Shown here piece by piece: positions 19,743-31,723 of a DNA stretch of 36,316 nucleotides. Made by a program: the position numbers and the translations under genes. Source of the stretch: Candidatus Lambdaproteobacteria bacterium RIFOXYD2_FULL_50_16 (GTDB taxonomy: Bacteria > SAR324 > XYD2-FULL-50-16). The notes beneath the pieces are model-generated. The model searched no databases, was not told where the DNA came from, and was given only the letters and a program-made list of their open reading frames with translations. The stretch is taken from positions 1 through 36,316 of the forward strand of contig MFNE01000017.1 in assembly GCA_001783695.1 (NCBI GenBank). The letters are read 5' to 3'. Position 1 is the first letter of the stretch; each line of letters starts with the position of its first letter.

Positions 19743-20177
19743 CTAGGCCTCTGGATCGGGAATCAGTGGTTCTTTGGTGGTGTAATCGGTATCGTTTAAA
19801 ACTGCCTGCACGCCCTTGTGGGAAATTCGATTTACAATCAAAGGTGCGCCCAAATTCAAGGTCGCCTCCTCTAAACGTCGGCCTAAGGTAACAATGGCCA
19901 TTTGGGCCAGATCGGCCCCTTTGGTTGCGTCAATCAAAGCCAAATCTTCGGTGCTAGGCTCAATCTTAAAATCGGCGTAAATAGCCACCGGGTCCACCAC
20001 CACAAAGGTCAGGGCAGGTTCGTCTAACGATTGCAACATCCTAAACGGCCCAGCCTCTTCTTGGTCAATCACAACGTACCTCTTCTGCTTCTCGAAGCCG
20101 TAAAGACCCTCGGGAAAGAGGATTACTTCCTCGTCAGCGACCTCAATTAAACCAAATCTGGTGGTTGATACCTGCAT
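19743..20177 (-). CDS. fliW: Flagellar assembly factor FliW
   Basis: FliW binds flagellin in the cytoplasm and, in species with the FliW-CsrA switch, antagonises the RNA-binding regulator CsrA. It has 144 residues, the family norm. Typical segments are TRFGLIEVADEEVILFPEGLYGFE, FRMLQSLDEPALTFVVVDP and a late NLGAPLIVNRISHKGVQAVL. GAGG lies 6 bases before the ATG. The usual csrA or flagellin neighbours are absent; the flanks are a TfoX-N protein and a small membrane protein. Its presence implies a flagellated host. Confidence 0.94.
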   Translation of the reverse strand: MQVSTTRFGLIEVADEEVILFPEGLYGFEKQKRYVVIDQEEAGPFRMLQSLDEPALTFVVVDPVAIYADFKIEPSTEDLALIDATKGADLAQMAIVTLGRRLEEATLNLGAPLIVNRISHKGVQAVLNDTDYTTKEPLIPDPEA

Positions 20178-26259: not shown

Positions 26260-27805
26260 AGTTTTTCTCAAATTCGCCGGTTAACAGGGTCAGATTCAGA
26301 TAGGTCTTTTCATAGCCAATCTTGGCTAAGGTCAAGGAGAGTTCGGCGTCAAGCAGGTCACTTCGAACCTGGGAGACGCGGTAACTGGTGGCCTTGCCTA
26401 AACGGAATTTTTGCTGCTCTTTTTCTAGTAATTGCTGGTTTAGTTCAACCGATGTTTGCGCTAAATCAATGGTTTGCAGCCCTAGGTCGAGGTTACGTAG
26501 CAATGAACCATAGGTCACTTCTAGTTGGCTTTTTGCGTCCCTAAGTTGCAGTTCGGCATTAGCCTTTTCTAGTTGGGCCTGGGCCAAGACCTGCTCGCTT
26601 TTGTGGTCAAAGAGGGGCACCGACCAAGTGAGCCCTACTTGATACCCAGCCAGTCCTGGATCCCCCACGCCCGAACCCGCCGTCCCGGCGTCATATCCAT
26701 AGCCATCTAGGCGGTATTGAAGGTTAAGGTCTAAATTGGTAGAGACCTTATTTTGGGCTTCTATTAGATCTAGATCGTTAGATTTGATCTGTTCTTCGAA
26801 AATTTTAATCTCAGGATTTTGCTCCATAATCCGGCGCAGAGCTTCCGTGCTGCCCATTGGCTTAGAGTGGTTTTGCAAAGTTTCAGTTGGTTCATATTCC
26901 ATCGGTAGGCTGCCCAACCCTAAGACCACCCGGATTTGGTCTTCAATGGATTTTTTGTCGATCCTGGCGGCTAAAAGATTTTTTTCGGCCATAGCTAGTT
27001 GAGCCTCCGCTAACTTAACCTCGGTTGGATCAATAGCCCCCACCGATTCGCGCACCCGATTGTCCTCTAAAAACTGCTTGGCTAGGGTGGCCGACTTTTC
27101 TAGGGCTTTAATGTTTTCACTGATCCCCACCAAGTCCCAATAAATCGAAGCTACCTGTCCCAATATCTGGCGGCGCTCTTTTGCTGCATTTAGTTCAGCC
27201 CTTTGGGCAGCAATACCACTGCGTTTTTCGGGCACCTCGTTGACCTCGCCCAAATCCTGAAAGAGGGGCAGATTGACCCCTAAAATCACCGCGTCTGCAT
27301 AAACGGGATCGGTTAAATCAGTAAAAGCCCCCACCTGCCCACCACTTTGCTCGATACTTCCCAGGCTTGTGGTGCTGATACCTCGCTGGTAGGTGAGTCC
27401 GTAAGACAGCCCACTTTTTAACTTTTGCTTAAGCCCAGTCGAAAGCAACCTTTGTTGAGTTGCGGTTAGGCTCATGTAACTGGTGCTGCCTGTCTCCGAA
27501 ATCAAAAAGCTGGCCGGACTGGTTGAGTAGGTTTGGCTGATTTGGTTGGTCCAGGTGATCGGCTCCATCCCTTGAGAGGCCTCATATACCTGCGCCGCCG
27601 CTTGGGTTCGGTTGCTGGCAATCTTCAGTTGAGGGGCGCGCTGTAGGGTGAGTTTAAGGATCGCTTTTAGGCTAACCTGAACCACCTGTTTGCCTTGGCG
27701 CTCAACCAACACAAACTCCCTTAAGAGTTCTGGGTCCAGCTTTTGGGCCCATAAAAAGGGGGGCAGCCCCATTAAAAGAAGGAAGAGAAAACTAGCTTTA
27801 CGCAT
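26249..27805 (-). CDS. TolC-like outer membrane efflux protein
   Basis: Outer-membrane channel of the tripartite pump. From the ATG at 27803-27805 the protein has 518 residues with a cleavable signal (MRKASFLFLLLMGLPPFLWAQ). Two internal outer-membrane efflux (OEP) repeats are seen, each with long Ala/Leu/Gln/Glu helices (first repeat near AERNAAKERRQILGQVASIYWDL-like helix; second near LEKANAELQLRDAKSQLEV). The start overlaps the tetR stop by 8 bases, so tetR and tolC are coupled. A longer frame starting 8 codons upstream is unlikely because it would spoil the signal peptide. Confidence 0.92.
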   Translation of the reverse strand: MRKASFLFLLLMGLPPFLWAQKLDPELLREFVLVERQGKQVVQVSLKAILKLTLQRAPQLKIASNRTQAAAQVYEASQGMEPITWTNQISQTYSTSPASFLISETGSTSYMSLTATQQRLLSTGLKQKLKSGLSYGLTYQRGISTTSLGSIEQSGGQVGAFTDLTDPVYADAVILGVNLPLFQDLGEVNEVPEKRSGIAAQRAELNAAKERRQILGQVASIYWDLVGISENIKALEKSATLAKQFLEDNRVRESVGAIDPTEVKLAEAQLAMAEKNLLAARIDKKSIEDQIRVVLGLGSLPMEYEPTETLQNHSKPMGSTEALRRIMEQNPEIKIFEEQIKSNDLDLIEAQNKVSTNLDLNLQYRLDGYGYDAGTAGSGVGDPGLAGYQVGLTWSVPLFDHKSEQVLAQAQLEKANAELQLRDAKSQLEVTYGSLLRNLDLGLQTIDLAQTSVELNQQLLEKEQQKFRLGKATSYRVSQVRSDLLDAELSLTLAKIGYEKTYLNLTLLTGEFEKNYEL

Positions 27806-28415
27806 CGCTTTTATCGATACAATGGCCAATCAGGGCAAACACCTGTCGCGCCAATCCGGCTGGATCATTAAAGGGGCTTTTTTCGCCATGCATGGTCACA
27901 TGAGAGATGTAACCTTCCCGCAATATAGTGACCGCGAAGGAGGCTAATTCGAGGTGCTCCGGGGTCATCTTGGAGCCGCCAATCTTTCGCAAGGTTTCTA
28001 ATAAACTCGCCTGAATGTGGCGGCTCATTTGATTTAATCGTTCCGAAAAAACCGGGTCAAACATCGCCCGCTCCATGATCGTAAAAAAGCCCTTTGCGCT
28101 GTGGTTGCGGCTTAAACTTTCGTTGATATTATCAAAGAGGTTTACAAAGTATTCGCTTACATTGGCAGATTGCGCCTCTTCCAGGGCCGAAATGCGCGAT
28201 TTGACCTTACGCATCATCGTATCAAACAAGATGGCGTCTAAATCAGGGAAATGATGATAAAGGCTTGATTGACTTAAACCGGCGGCCCGGGCGATGCTGC
28301 GGGTACTAAACCCCCGGATACCCTGCTCTTCTAAGATTTGGTCGGCAGCTTCGACAATCCGAGTCCGGGTTCGCTCACCCTTTATTTTCCTAAGATCGGT
28401 ATGGTTCGAGTCCAT
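27798..28415 (-). CDS. TetR-family regulator of the efflux operon
   Basis: A 205-residue repressor-type protein. The N-terminal helix-turn-helix is canonical: RTRIVEAADQILEEQGIRGFSTRSIARAAGLSQSSLYHHF, with a ligand/dimer domain after residue 70. It is the first gene of the operon tetR - tolC - adaptor - pump - alkC, all overlapping or nearly so, so it very likely autoregulates the whole unit. A palindrome lies 25 bases upstream of its start. No strong ribosome site precedes the ATG. The inducer is unknown. Confidence 0.94.
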   Translation of the reverse strand: MDSNHTDLRKIKGERTRTRIVEAADQILEEQGIRGFSTRSIARAAGLSQSSLYHHFPDLDAILFDTMMRKVKSRISALEEAQSANVSEYFVNLFDNINESLSRNHSAKGFFTIMERAMFDPVFSERLNQMSRHIQASLLETLRKIGGSKMTPEHLELASFAVTILREGYISHVTMHGEKSPFNDPAGLARQVFALIGHCIDKSDA

Positions 28416-28439
28416 ATTTTCAATTAGATAAGGTTATAT

Positions 28440-28453
28440 ATCGAACAATCGAT
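28440..28453. promoter_or_regulatory. Candidate TetR operator
   Basis: ATCGA-ACAA-TCGAT, perfect 5-bp arms, lies in the AT-rich gap upstream of tetR and within promoter distance of the divergent FliG-like gene. TATATA- and TATTAT-type boxes flank it on both sides. Position and symmetry fit TetR-family autorepression; the binding claim is inference. Confidence 0.5.
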
Positions 28454-28493
28454 CAGTTATTATTGCGTATATTTTTGGGCTTAGCAAGGGGTA

Positions 28494-28601
28494 GTGCCCG
28501 GCGCTGGACTCCCGCTCAGCGCCGGACTGGAGGAACGCCTCTTGGGTGGCGTTGAAGATAGTTTGCCCCTATTTTTAGAGCGCATCATCAACAGAGGGTA
28601 A
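28494..28601 (+). CDS. Possible small ORF or gene remnant
   Basis: From a GTG at 28494 the frame reads 35 residues (start PGAGLPLSAGLEERLLGG, end LFLERIINRG) before TAA. The pattern of alternating hydrophobic and acidic residues looks protein-like. The purine run AAGGGG is only 2 bases from the GTG, too close for a normal ribosome site. The first codons are the left arm of a hairpin, so the composition may instead come from RNA structure. Low certainty. Confidence 0.25.
   Translation: MPGAGLPLSAGLEERLLGGVEDSLPLFLERIINRG
28498..28525. other. Strong hairpin upstream of the FliG-like gene
   Basis: CCGGCGCTG and CAGCGCCGG form a perfect 9-bp GC-rich stem around a 10-base loop (GACTCCCGCT). No T-tract follows, so it is not an intrinsic terminator. 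It could be a 5' leader structure of the downstream gene or a small protein-binding site. Confidence 0.6.
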
Positions 28602-28684
28602 GCATTTGTAACAAAGAGTAACGATTTGCCCTTTTCGAGATGGACCAATTTAATTATACTTCGCCCAAACCTCAACGGCTTATT

Positions 28685-30460
28685 ATGCGTATTTTCCTTG
28701 CGATCCTTCTCTTTTGGCCCGCCCTCGCTGGCGCAAAAAGCTTCGACAGCCCCTTAAGCGGGCAAAGTGAAGTGGCCCTGCTCTTAGCCAACACCCTAAA
28801 ATCGCAGGGATACCAGGGCGATATCCCCAAGGTAGAGATCGAATTTAGTTTAAATCTGCCCAAGTCGATTCCTGGCCCTGGAAAACAGGCTGGAAAACAG
28901 GCCGGCCTGTTTTTCCCAAAGATCACTGAAAAATTAGGAGCCGGGGGCTTTGAAGCGGTAAAGGTAAAACTTGCGTCCTCTAGCCTAACCTCGGCGCAAA
29001 CAGCGGCGCTCAAGACCGCCCTAGGCGGCCTATTGGGGCTTGACCCTCAAAAGGATTGGTTAACCCAAGGCGAGGCCCTGCCCGCTATAACTATCCCCGT
29101 CCTTGCAGAAGAACAAAAAGCAATCACCTCTACCGAAACCCTAATTATTCCCGAGCCCGAAGACGCCCCAGAACCAGATCTAACCCCAGAGCCCTTGGGC
29201 CCGGACCCGGCTAAAGAAGCTAGATTCAAAACCCTGCTCGCCTGGATTTGGGGGACTGCTGCCCTATTAGTGGTGCTTATGGTAGGTTCTACCTTGTGGC
29301 TTCGCCGCTCGCAAAGCCCTAAAGCAGATCTAAAACAATTAAGGAAACTTAAACTTGAAGAGGAAAATCTCGATTTTTCAGAGCTCAAGGAATTTAAGGA
29401 ACTATTCAAGGAGTCGGAAAAACTAGCGCCCATACCTGCCGAAGAAGAGCCCGCCCCCCTCCCCGAAGGTCTTACTGAATTAGAACAGGTTAAAAACGAC
29501 CTAGGTGACTTGCTACGCTGGCAGCCAGATTGGGCCTTGGAATTGGCTGAAGCCAGAAACGACCAGGAACTGTCTAAATTGATGGCCCTTTTTGGCCCTG
29601 AACGCTCTAAAGAGGTGTTTGGACCGGTTTTAGGTCCAGAACGGCTTAGAAAACGGTTGGAATCTGCCGCCGAAACCATCTACCGCCCCGACGAAGAGGG
29701 TAGTCTTTTGATGGAGTTACATAGAGGATTTTTCTTAGAAAAGCTTTCCATCCTCAAGGCGCAAAAGGAATCCCCCAAAACCCAGGCGGAGGTCGCCCAA
29801 GATCAAGCGGAAAAAAGCGAGGAGGCCGCAGCCTTTGCCTTTATTGCCCAAGTTCCCGAAGAGGAACTGTATCTGCTCCTTAAAAAGGAAACCCCATTGA
29901 TCCAGTCTTTAGCCCTTCGCCACTGGGCGGGCCCTTCTGAAGAACTGGCCCAGCGGCTTCCTGATCCCTTAGCCCTAGAAGCGGAAAACAAAAAGCGAAG
30001 ACCCTTGTCTAATGAGTTAGTTGGGCAGATCGCTCAAGGTTTGGCTGGGCGCCTAGAGGCGTTGGGCCACGGGGGGGAGTTGGACCTAAACCGACTGGAA
30101 GAATCCCTGATTTTGCTGGCCGACATGGCCCCCATCGAGCGCGAAGAGCATCTGTTGGCTGTGGCCGAGGATCAACCCAATCTAGCCGAAGCGGCCCGCC
30201 AAGCCTTTTATCCTTGGGAGGAGGTCGGTGGACTAGACCCCTCGCTTTTAATCCGTGCTACTGGCGCCCTAGACCCGCAAACCCTAGCCCAAGCTTTATC
30301 TGGGCTTGCCAAACCCCTACAAGAACCCTTGTTATTCCACCTATCCAAAGAGGCGCGGAGTCAATGTATTAAAATTTTGCGTGCCAACCCTCCGGCTCAA
30401 GGCGCCCGCCTTCGGGCCCGTCGTCTTCTGGCCATGTTACTCAAAGGGGCAGAGGCTTAA
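28685..30460 (+). CDS. Membrane protein with FliF-like periplasmic part and FliG-like cytoplasmic domain
   Basis: 591 residues from the ATG at 28685 (MRIFLAILLFWPALAGA, a signal peptide); a start 15 codons upstream (28640) is also open. Numbering below is from that upstream start. Residues ~60-150 form a periplasmic domain whose LTSAQTAALKTALGGLLGLD segment recalls the last periplasmic domain of FliF. A Pro/Glu-rich stretch (168-192) precedes one span (198-221). The cytoplasmic half holds an acidic linker, then EEELYLLLKKETPLIQSLAL and EELAQRLPDP (~407-443), resembling the FliG middle domain with its EHPQ region. FYPWEEVGGLDPSLLIRATG (523-542) to the C-terminus aligns with FliG-C. The FliG torque residues (Lys264, Arg281, Asp288/289 in E. 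coli numbering) align with Ser, Glu and Ile-Leu here. A 12-bp tandem repeat (28878-28901) codes GKQAGKQAG. Function unknown; the domain calls are by eye. Confidence 0.75.
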   Translation: MRIFLAILLFWPALAGAKSFDSPLSGQSEVALLLANTLKSQGYQGDIPKVEIEFSLNLPKSIPGPGKQAGKQAGLFFPKITEKLGAGGFEAVKVKLASSSLTSAQTAALKTALGGLLGLDPQKDWLTQGEALPAITIPVLAEEQKAITSTETLIIPEPEDAPEPDLTPEPLGPDPAKEARFKTLLAWIWGTAALLVVLMVGSTLWLRRSQSPKADLKQLRKLKLEEENLDFSELKEFKELFKESEKLAPIPAEEEPAPLPEGLTELEQVKNDLGDLLRWQPDWALELAEARNDQELSKLMALFGPERSKEVFGPVLGPERLRKRLESAAETIYRPDEEGSLLMELHRGFFLEKLSILKAQKESPKTQAEVAQDQAEKSEEAAAFAFIAQVPEEELYLLLKKETPLIQSLALRHWAGPSEELAQRLPDPLALEAENKKRRPLSNELVGQIAQGLAGRLEALGHGGELDLNRLEESLILLADMAPIEREEHLLAVAEDQPNLAEAARQAFYPWEEVGGLDPSLLIRATGALDPQTLAQALSGLAKPLQEPLLFHLSKEARSQCIKILRANPPAQGARLRARRLLAMLLKGAEA

Positions 30461-30473
30461 TAAACCCAGTCCA

Positions 30474-30980
30474 ATGAAGGGTTATGAAAAGAAATTTATG
30501 TGGGCAGTTGCTACAGTATTTCTATAGTTTCACCAACTAAATTTAGGGGTCCGGTTTTCCCGGAATCACGCCCTTTCCCTAGAAAAAATAACTTAGAGAT
30601 ATTTGGCGCCAATAGGGATTCCTTATGGCAGGGCTAAATCGAGCCGGGAGGAGGAATACCCAGGCTCGATTCGTTCAGAGGGGATCGCGCTGGCTTATCG
30701 GGGCTTTATAACAGACCGATTTTATACCGCCTTACAAGCTTTACCCCTACAGCAGACCTTTCTGGATACCAACGGGGAGGAAATAGCCCAAGGCAAGCAA
30801 CTGTTTATGAAACTGAGGTTTGGCCTTCCTTATGGAGGCACCTTGTTTATGGAACCTTCGCTCGCCTTTACCTATTGGCCCAACAATGAAGGATTACCCC
30901 AAAGCTTTCAGGCAAAAGAAGACCCGTGGCCAAATCATTTTTTATTTGAACCTGGGCTGCATGTGCGGATGAACTTTTGA
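30474..30980 (+). pseudogene. Outer-membrane beta-barrel protein gene with two in-frame TAG codons
   Basis: One reading frame from the ATG at 30474 gives MKGYEKKFMWAVATVFL (signal-like), TAG at 30525, then FHQLNLGVRFSRNHALSLEK-I-T, TAG at 30594, and then 128 sense codons to TGA at 30980. The last part reads like a small barrel: alternating strands such as LFMKLRFGLPYGGTLFMEPSLAF, an FQAKEDPWPNHFLFEPGLHVRMNF end, and a terminal Phe as required by the Bam machinery. The longest unbroken piece starts at a TTG at 30603 and lacks a signal peptide. Both stops lie in the same frame as the signal and the barrel, so this is most simply a decayed gene. TAG ends nqrA, nqrD and phoU here, so recoding is unlikely. 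The N-terminal part also seems short for such barrels. Confidence 0.7.
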
Positions 30981-31048: not shown

Positions 31049-31723
31049 CTAGCCTAAATCAAGGTCGTCTAGGTCCTGGTGGCGGACGATGTAACCTTCA
31101 ATTAAGTAGATCACGTCTTCGGCAATATTGCTGACTAGGTCGGCGATACGCTCTAAATATCGCGAGATCGAGGCGTATTGGAGCATAATCCCCACCTGAT
31201 TGGGATTGGTACGGATACACTCGGTTACTTGGGCGAAGATTTCCTTGTTTTGTTGGTCCACTTCGTCATCGAGGCTGCAAACCTCAATGGCCAATTGCAG
31301 GTCCATATTTAACAAGGAATCGAGACTCTTAGAAAACATTTCCCCTACCTTTTTGGCCATACCCTTTATGTCGAAGCGGGCCACACAAGGGGACTGACTA
31401 GAAAGGTCTAAAACCCGCTCACCAATGTTCACCGAGCAATCGTTGATTCGCTCTAACTCATTATTAATCTTTAAAATCGAGATAATCAGCCGCAAGTCCA
31501 CCGCCACCGGCTGGTGAAGCGCCAAAATTTTGAGGCACTCCTCCTCGATTTCGAGTTCGATGGTGTTGATGTCATCGTCGCCCGCAATCATCCGCTTAGC
31601 GGTCTCTACATCCACCGTCTCTACCGCTTCGGTGATGTCGTGGAAGTTTTTTTCCACTTTGGCGCTCATCGAAAGGATCTGGGATTTGAGCCGTTCGATT
31701 TCTTTTTGAAGTTGTATAGTCAT
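31049..31723 (-). CDS. phoU: Phosphate signalling regulator PhoU
   Basis: Cytoplasmic protein that couples the Pst transporter to the PhoR/PhoB two-component system. It has 224 residues of all-helical structure with two PhoU repeats. Metal-binding type motifs are seen: ERINDCSVNIGERV and ERIADLVSNIAEDVIY (E-x2-x-D-x3-N pattern in each repeat). AAGGGAAG lies before the ATG, 9 bases after the pstB stop. Last gene of the pst operon; it ends with TAG. Confidence 0.97.
   Translation of the reverse strand: MTIQLQKEIERLKSQILSMSAKVEKNFHDITEAVETVDVETAKRMIAGDDDINTIELEIEEECLKILALHQPVAVDLRLIISILKINNELERINDCSVNIGERVLDLSSQSPCVARFDIKGMAKKVGEMFSKSLDSLLNMDLQLAIEVCSLDDEVDQQNKEIFAQVTECIRTNPNQVGIMLQYASISRYLERIADLVSNIAEDVIYLIEGYIVRHQDLDDLDLG

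Follow-up and report, generated by a model that had tools for sequence, protein, structure and literature searches.

The window analysed here is a stretch of 36,316 nucleotides from Candidatus Lambdaproteobacteria bacterium RIFOXYD2_FULL_50_16 (host genome G000). It carries an intact open reading frame (ORF) of 591 aa at 28685-30460 on the forward strand, whose product combines a membrane-anchored periplasmic part with a FliG-like cytoplasmic half. The locus raises the question of whether this protein belongs to the flagellum, to another motor, or to no motor at all. A preliminary description made from the letters alone regarded it as a FliG-derived scaffold anchoring a ring outside the canonical motor.

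Layout of the protein and its FliG-like half

The signal peptide and the single membrane span are clear, and the cytoplasmic half is helical. A hydropathy scan, the sequence and a structure model together recovered the signal peptide, periplasmic domain and single span that had been described. Use of an in-frame ATG further upstream, at 28640, would lengthen the protein by 15 aa, and the start at 28685 is supported because the homologue in genome G002 starts at the same place. The features of the gene are as follows.

28685..30460, + strand: FliF(RBM3)-TM-FliG-like single-chain protein, 591 aa (ORF, Pfam, PDB search, hhalign, Foldseek)
28685..28738, + strand: signal peptide, residues 1-18 (hydrophobic stretch in hydropathy scan; sequence)
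28748..29098, + strand: periplasmic domain, residues 22-138, predicted alpha-beta-beta-alpha-beta (low-confidence model; relatives' model matches FliF S-ring/RBM3)
29099..29233, + strand: Pro/Glu-rich acidic periplasmic linker, residues 139-183 (sequence; pLDDT mostly <50)
29234..29302, + strand: single transmembrane helix, residues about 184-206 (hydropathy; model helix 175-209)
29468..29758, + strand: FliG_N-like helical domain, residues about 262-358 (common to the SAR324 fusion family)
29810..30070, + strand: FliG_M-like domain, residues about 376-462, with ETPL in place of EHPQ (hhalign; motif alignment)
30077..30448, + strand: FliG_C-like domain, residues about 465-588, reading S, E, K, I at the torque positions (Pfam FliG_C; hhalign; alignment)

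The FliG homology of the window protein is beyond chance. Its Pfam FliG_C match (2.7e-4, 21.6 bits) lies just under the cut-off of 23.3, and FliG_C was above the cut-off in the genome search, in which the window ORF was taken with its frame neighbours. The PDB search returned FliG chains only, the best being 3hjl (4.1e-6, residues 340-580). A profile built from the window protein and L005 of G002, the single close relative (40% identical and colinear over the full length), matched ordinary FliG by hhalign at 96% (E 1.9e-9). The same pair matched the SAR324 fusion family at 99% (4e-18) over 295 columns, starting at the FliG_N-like domain. The AlphaFold model of the window protein is weak (pLDDT 56); used as a Foldseek query it gave FliG at ranks 1-13, all nine PDB matches at E <0.001 were FliG, and full-length FliG 3hjl was aligned over 320 columns. 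The proposed homology of the cytoplasmic half with the middle and C domains of FliG is thus borne out by the hhalign, PDB and Foldseek results. The window protein also matches the family profile at E 7e-153, a profile of which it is itself a row. It scores 16.4 bits against the NCBIfam fliG equivalog TIGR00207 and a SAR324 relative scores 77.8 bits, both below the cut-off of 226.7. MgtE_N and MlaA matches were also considered for the fusion proteins and rejected; MgtE_N has a FliG_M-like fold and was the weaker match.

A putative, degenerate FliF-like periplasmic part

The putative FliF part appears degenerate in the window protein. No sequence match to FliF was found by hhalign with the window protein (0.1%), and neither the window pair nor the SAR324 family gave a significant hhalign match to canonical FliF. 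The Pfam scan of the window protein found no YscJ_FliF match (PF01514; RBM1/RBM2), the protein lacks the first transmembrane span of FliF, and its periplasmic domain no longer carries the RGD motif seen in the family. The FliF assignment accordingly draws on predicted structure and on homologues further removed. A better-covered SAR324 relative was modelled at pLDDT 73 with a periplasmic alpha-beta-beta-alpha-beta domain, and Foldseek matched this model first to FliG (to 1e-8) and next to a series of FliF S-ring/RBM3 structures, the latter at a probability of 0.96-1.0 with E values of only 3e-3 to 0.14. The window model has the same order of elements, at low confidence in that region. FliF_C (PF08345) is above the Pfam cut-off in the more distant relatives L091, L093, L120 and L123. 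From the matches of the relatives' model and the shared element order, the family can be read as a natural FliF(RBM3)-TM-FliG chain, and the periplasmic domain at 28748..29098 is taken here as a putative, degenerate RBM3-like ring-building domain. The resemblance to the last periplasmic domain of FliF that had been proposed therefore stands for the family; in the window protein it does not extend to the sequence, and only the predicted topology agrees.

Separate flagellar genes and altered motor residues

The host genome has a separate canonical FliF (one), FliG (two copies) and FlhA, which supports the earlier view that the window protein lies outside the canonical motor. The only PF01514 match in the genome is this separate FliF, on contig C35. 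The fliW gene reported at 19743, from which a flagellated host had been deduced, was confirmed at 19743-20177 (PF02623, 2.2e-33). The genome check that the preliminary description had called for thus found both fliF and fliG, though fliG does not follow fliF. The host fliF (L099:6125-8907) is directly followed by other genes, and the two near-identical canonical FliG genes (L001, G000:C26:98351-101671; L002, G000:C39:21411-24731) both lie away from other flagellar genes.

The motif EHPQ is the known FliM-binding motif of FliG. It is present in all 18 flagellar FliGs compared and in none of 23 FliG-like proteins outside the flagellar clade, and the window protein carries ETPL where it is expected. 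In the alignment, the torque positions read S for K264, E for R281, K for D288 and I for D289. All four are changed, as had been claimed; the S and E were correct, but the last two had been read one column off, as I and L. The torque charges are changed in the SAR324 fusions, so stator coupling there would need a different interface, while the split FliGs of other phyla have K, R, E and D at these positions. In a tree of the FliG M-C region, the 18 flagellar FliGs fell on one side of a supported branch (99/94), with all fusions and split forms outside it. The window pair either joined SAR324 fusion-2 or fell outside, with long-branch warnings, and its grouping with the fusion-1 clade was not rejected (AU p 0.31).

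The fusion family and its operons in SAR324

Fusion homologues with the same layout (600-660 aa) occur across the same class, and a scan of named genomes placed the fusion in MAGs labelled SAR324 cluster, Deltaproteobacteria and Lambdaproteobacteria, among others. Pfam assigned FliG_C to 12, FliG_M to 11 and FliG_N to 8 of 12 members. In about 27 SAR324 genomes the relatives adjoin or co-occur with MotA-MotB, an OMP-like protein, a TPR lipoprotein and FliF_C-like proteins. The operon in G001 (L048), G003 (L046) and G006 (L051) reads motA-motB-OMP-TPR lipoprotein-RBM protein-RBM/TPR protein-fusion, with the fusion last, and other SAR324 families have the same genes in a slightly different order. 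The RBM protein has FliF_C-like domains (PF08345, 2.4e-4, just under the cut-off). Across 52 SAR324 genomes, the OMP was present in 26 of 29 fusion genomes (Fisher p 2e-9), as was the RBM protein (p 2e-10), and the dedicated MotA in 25 of 29 (p 7e-7), values uncorrected for MAG incompleteness and shared ancestry. This MotA is of the flagellar MotA/MotP type rather than TolQ/ExbB, scoring 119 bits to MotP and 26 to TolQ. The dedicated MotB has an OmpA domain and an invariant channel Asp (10/10). None of the operon components tested reached the cut-off of any NCBIfam family.

Two further SAR324 variants were found, fusion-motA-motB-OMP and OMP-715 aa-fusion-motA-motB. They are represented by L080, L081, L083 and L085 (e.g. 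L080:4335-9805) and by L082:5151-13010, in each of which a membrane FliG-like gene adjoins motA-motB and MotB is enlarged, at 449-522 aa. A porin-like protein is also part of the first variant, as is a FecR-domain protein in those loci that are long enough to show it. In one five-contig MAG the fusion (L017, G038:C1:573679-575523) contains several internal stops, reflecting assembly error or decay. FlhA was found in all nine SAR324 genomes tested, and four SAR324 genomes (G012, G015, G016, G023) have canonical FliF and lack the fusion.

Similar operons in other phyla

Roughly 330 genomes of a 383-genome sample were surveyed from other phyla, and several carry a FliF_C/FliG/MotA/MotB-type kit. 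Similar operons are found in at least two phyla other than SAR324. G264 codes for a FliF_C-TM-FliG-TPR chain with PF08345 above the cut-off, plus motA and motB; in G259, motA and two motB genes accompany a fusion. In G239 and G094 the fusion occurs with a TPR lipoprotein and OMPs, in G094 without adjacent motAB. G105 and G379 have a split form, OMP-motA-motB-FliF_C/TM-FliG. FlhA was absent from G094, G259 and G264 (95-96% complete).

Long relatives occur in about 11 of 16 genomes of the phylum of G264. The loci L091, L121 and L122 of this phylum contain a UPF0164-match OMP, a FliF_C-TM-FliG-TPR fusion, a protein of roughly 1300 aa without a Pfam match, and motA; the L091 operon has motB as well, and most sampled genomes of the phylum have the fusion. 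In the phylum of G379, four neighbourhoods from four families share one operon order, and a FliF_C protein was matched in 52 of 80 genomes, some of which could be flagellar FliF. Its loci L118:1135-9711, L119, L120, L123, L092 and L093 contain exported proteins, OMP/TPR, motA, motB, FliF_C-TM and FliG. FlhA is present in G105 and G379 too, on contigs other than that of the operon. A match in G269 that spanned FliF and FliG with an internal TAG was discarded as ordinary neighbouring fliF-fliG, about 16 kb from its FlhA.

Loss of partner genes in the window lineage

The neighbourhood of the window gene can be compared with that of its relatives through conserved flanks.

27798..28415, - strand: TetR regulator, left flank; synteny common to L048 (37%) and L052 (49%)
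28416..28639, no strand: TetR/fusion junction; in G001 (L048) the motA-motB-OMP-lipoprotein-RBM protein-RBM/TPR genes occupy this position
31049..31723, - strand: PhoU, right flank; synteny common to L048 (54%) and L052 (68%)

In G001 the complete operon lies between the counterparts of these TetR and PhoU genes, with TolC and MFP further out. No remnants of the partner genes were found at the window junction. The dedicated MotA and the RBM protein were absent from the whole G000 and G002 assemblies (97-98% complete); the OMP was absent from G000, and G002 gave only a weak partial profile match to it (5.9e-9). The ORF at 30603-30980, downstream of the fusion, gave no Pfam match and bears no convincing resemblance to the OMP genes that G002 and G001 have at this place. 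Six partner genes are gone, a loss specific to the lineage of the window and one sister genus.

The window fusion is the fastest-changing gene of its neighbourhood, at 36% identity to G002 compared with 49-86%. Identity by codon position between the two genes is 0.50/0.59/0.33, and both ORFs are intact. These values show that the protein of the window lineage is under protein-level constraint.

Possible roles and alternative explanations

Stator coupling is probable for the family as a whole, since in most relatives the gene belongs with a flagellar-type MotA/MotB and envelope genes of its own. In such a machine the fusion subunit would form an inner-membrane ring, and a dedicated MotA/MotB stator, anchored to peptidoglycan through the OmpA domain of MotB, would act by MotA pushing the FliG part. 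Stacked periplasmic RBM3-like rings and TPR proteins might then pass motion or force to the outer-membrane protein. Since the FliM-binding EHPQ is lost, no FliM/FliN switch is expected, and a CheY switch would be missing along with FliM. The window lineage has lost the stator set, which makes a ring or scaffold a likelier role for the window protein than that of a torque-bearing rotor; normal stator coupling is probably absent there, although the protein could possibly borrow flagellar MotAB. The earlier opinion that stator coupling is unlikely therefore fits the window lineage, with its changed torque residues and missing partners, but not the family as a whole. Likewise, the FliG derivation, the membrane anchor and the place outside the canonical motor were correctly recognised, but the dedicated MotA/MotB and envelope genes of most relatives were missed. 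We consider it probable that the window protein is an orphan of a single-chain rotor family (RBM3-like domain, membrane helix, FliG N-M-C) whose relatives would work as an ion-driven, envelope-spanning machine, and that, being still under constraint, it has most likely been kept as a membrane-anchored ring or scaffold whose coupling to a stator is weak or absent.

Three other explanations were weighed. The window gene could be a decaying relic of a lost machine without present function, and its high divergence, the lost partner genes and the disappearance of the FliF motif and torque residues fit this. However, the ORF is intact in two genera and aligns colinearly over its full length with the G002 homologue, and second codon positions are conserved (0.59) while third positions are saturated (0.33), which makes a relic rather improbable. 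Could the protein instead be a static, membrane-anchored scaffold or a polar organiser that has nothing to do with torque? The lost torque positions and the lack of a dedicated stator in the host genome speak for this, but a FliG-like gene beside motA-motB recurs elsewhere in the family in several arrangements, and the split FliGs keep their torque residues; we regard it as unlikely, and no evidence was found for the polar organiser that had been suggested.

The family might also serve the flagellum as an accessory, adding a further rotor or a scaffold ring to a polar flagellum along with a second stator set. The flagellar type of MotA and the presence of FlhA in every SAR324 genome tested agree with this. 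It is nonetheless highly doubtful, given the fusion-motAB operons of FlhA-less G259 and G264 (and the fusion of FlhA-less G094, without adjacent motAB), the fusion-motAB in most sampled members of one phylum, the SAR324 genomes with canonical FliF and no fusion, and the loss of EHPQ with the FliM/FliN switch. Beyond the orphan rotor subunit of the window, we hold it an evenly balanced proposition that widespread non-flagellar rotary machines exist in which MotA/MotB drives a FliF_C/FliG membrane ring, with periplasmic rings reaching the outer membrane and without export apparatus or filament, and of which the window lineage kept only the rotor subunit. If this is true, a FliF/FliG rotor with its own flagellar-type MotAB, in genomes that lack flagellar export genes, would either descend from the flagellar motor by reduction or be a pre-flagellar relic, and the order in which rotor, stator and export evolved would become testable by sequence. 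A motor so far unrecognised, which moves cells over surfaces or works on the envelope, may also be indicated for the abundant marine SAR324 and for other little-known phyla.

Comparison with known systems

All core parts have flagellar homologues, and the machine as a whole appears undescribed. No report of such a system was found in the literature searched, which lay outside bioRxiv and most subscription papers. The available portions of a MotAB survey (PMC12505986), a review of 5:2 motors (PMC9389320) and a gliding review (PMC13104615) do not mention a FliF/FliG-MotAB machine. The survey places flagellar-type stators together in a single flagellar group and sets them apart from ExbB/TolQ-like motors (PMC12505986).

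The 5:2 motors AglRQS, GldLM, TolQR and ExbBD are similar in coupling an ion-driven inner-membrane stator to periplasmic or outer-membrane parts, but no FliG-like rotor is named for them in the accessible text of these sources (PMC12505986, PMC9389320, PMC13104615). Unlike the TolQ/ExbB stators, the dedicated MotA of the family scores with flagellar MotA/MotP. Zorya ZorAB is also a MotA/MotB-like pair; identity with Zorya was rejected, as only ZorB/OmpA-domain cross-matches and no ZorA match were found, and a FliG-like rotor stands in place of the Zorya effectors.

Spirochetes have FliG1 and FliG2, and, as in the present host, an additional FliG is thus found in a flagellated cell; an asymmetric localisation of FliG1 has been reported. 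According to the part of that paper available, the second FliG still serves flagellar torque generation; neither a FliF part nor a membrane span is mentioned there (PMC7225975). FliF-FliG fusions are known as engineered or mutant forms in Salmonella, and such fusions are motile (PMC7355467). They likewise join the C-terminal part of FliF and FliG in one chain, but are laboratory or mutant forms with full-length FliF inside the flagellum (PMC7355467), whereas the chain described here is natural, truncated and outside the flagellum.

The closest comparison is with the flagellar rotor, in which the C-terminal part of FliF and the FliG C-ring are driven by MotAB. The SAR324 form differs from it in being a single chain without RBM1/RBM2, without EHPQ and with changed torque charges, and the operons of the family lack export, rod or hook genes and occur in genomes without FlhA. 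It nevertheless resembles the rotor in the predicted RBM3-like domain followed by a membrane helix, in the N-M-C order of FliG, in the flagellar type of its MotA, and in a peptidoglycan-binding MotB that has the channel Asp.
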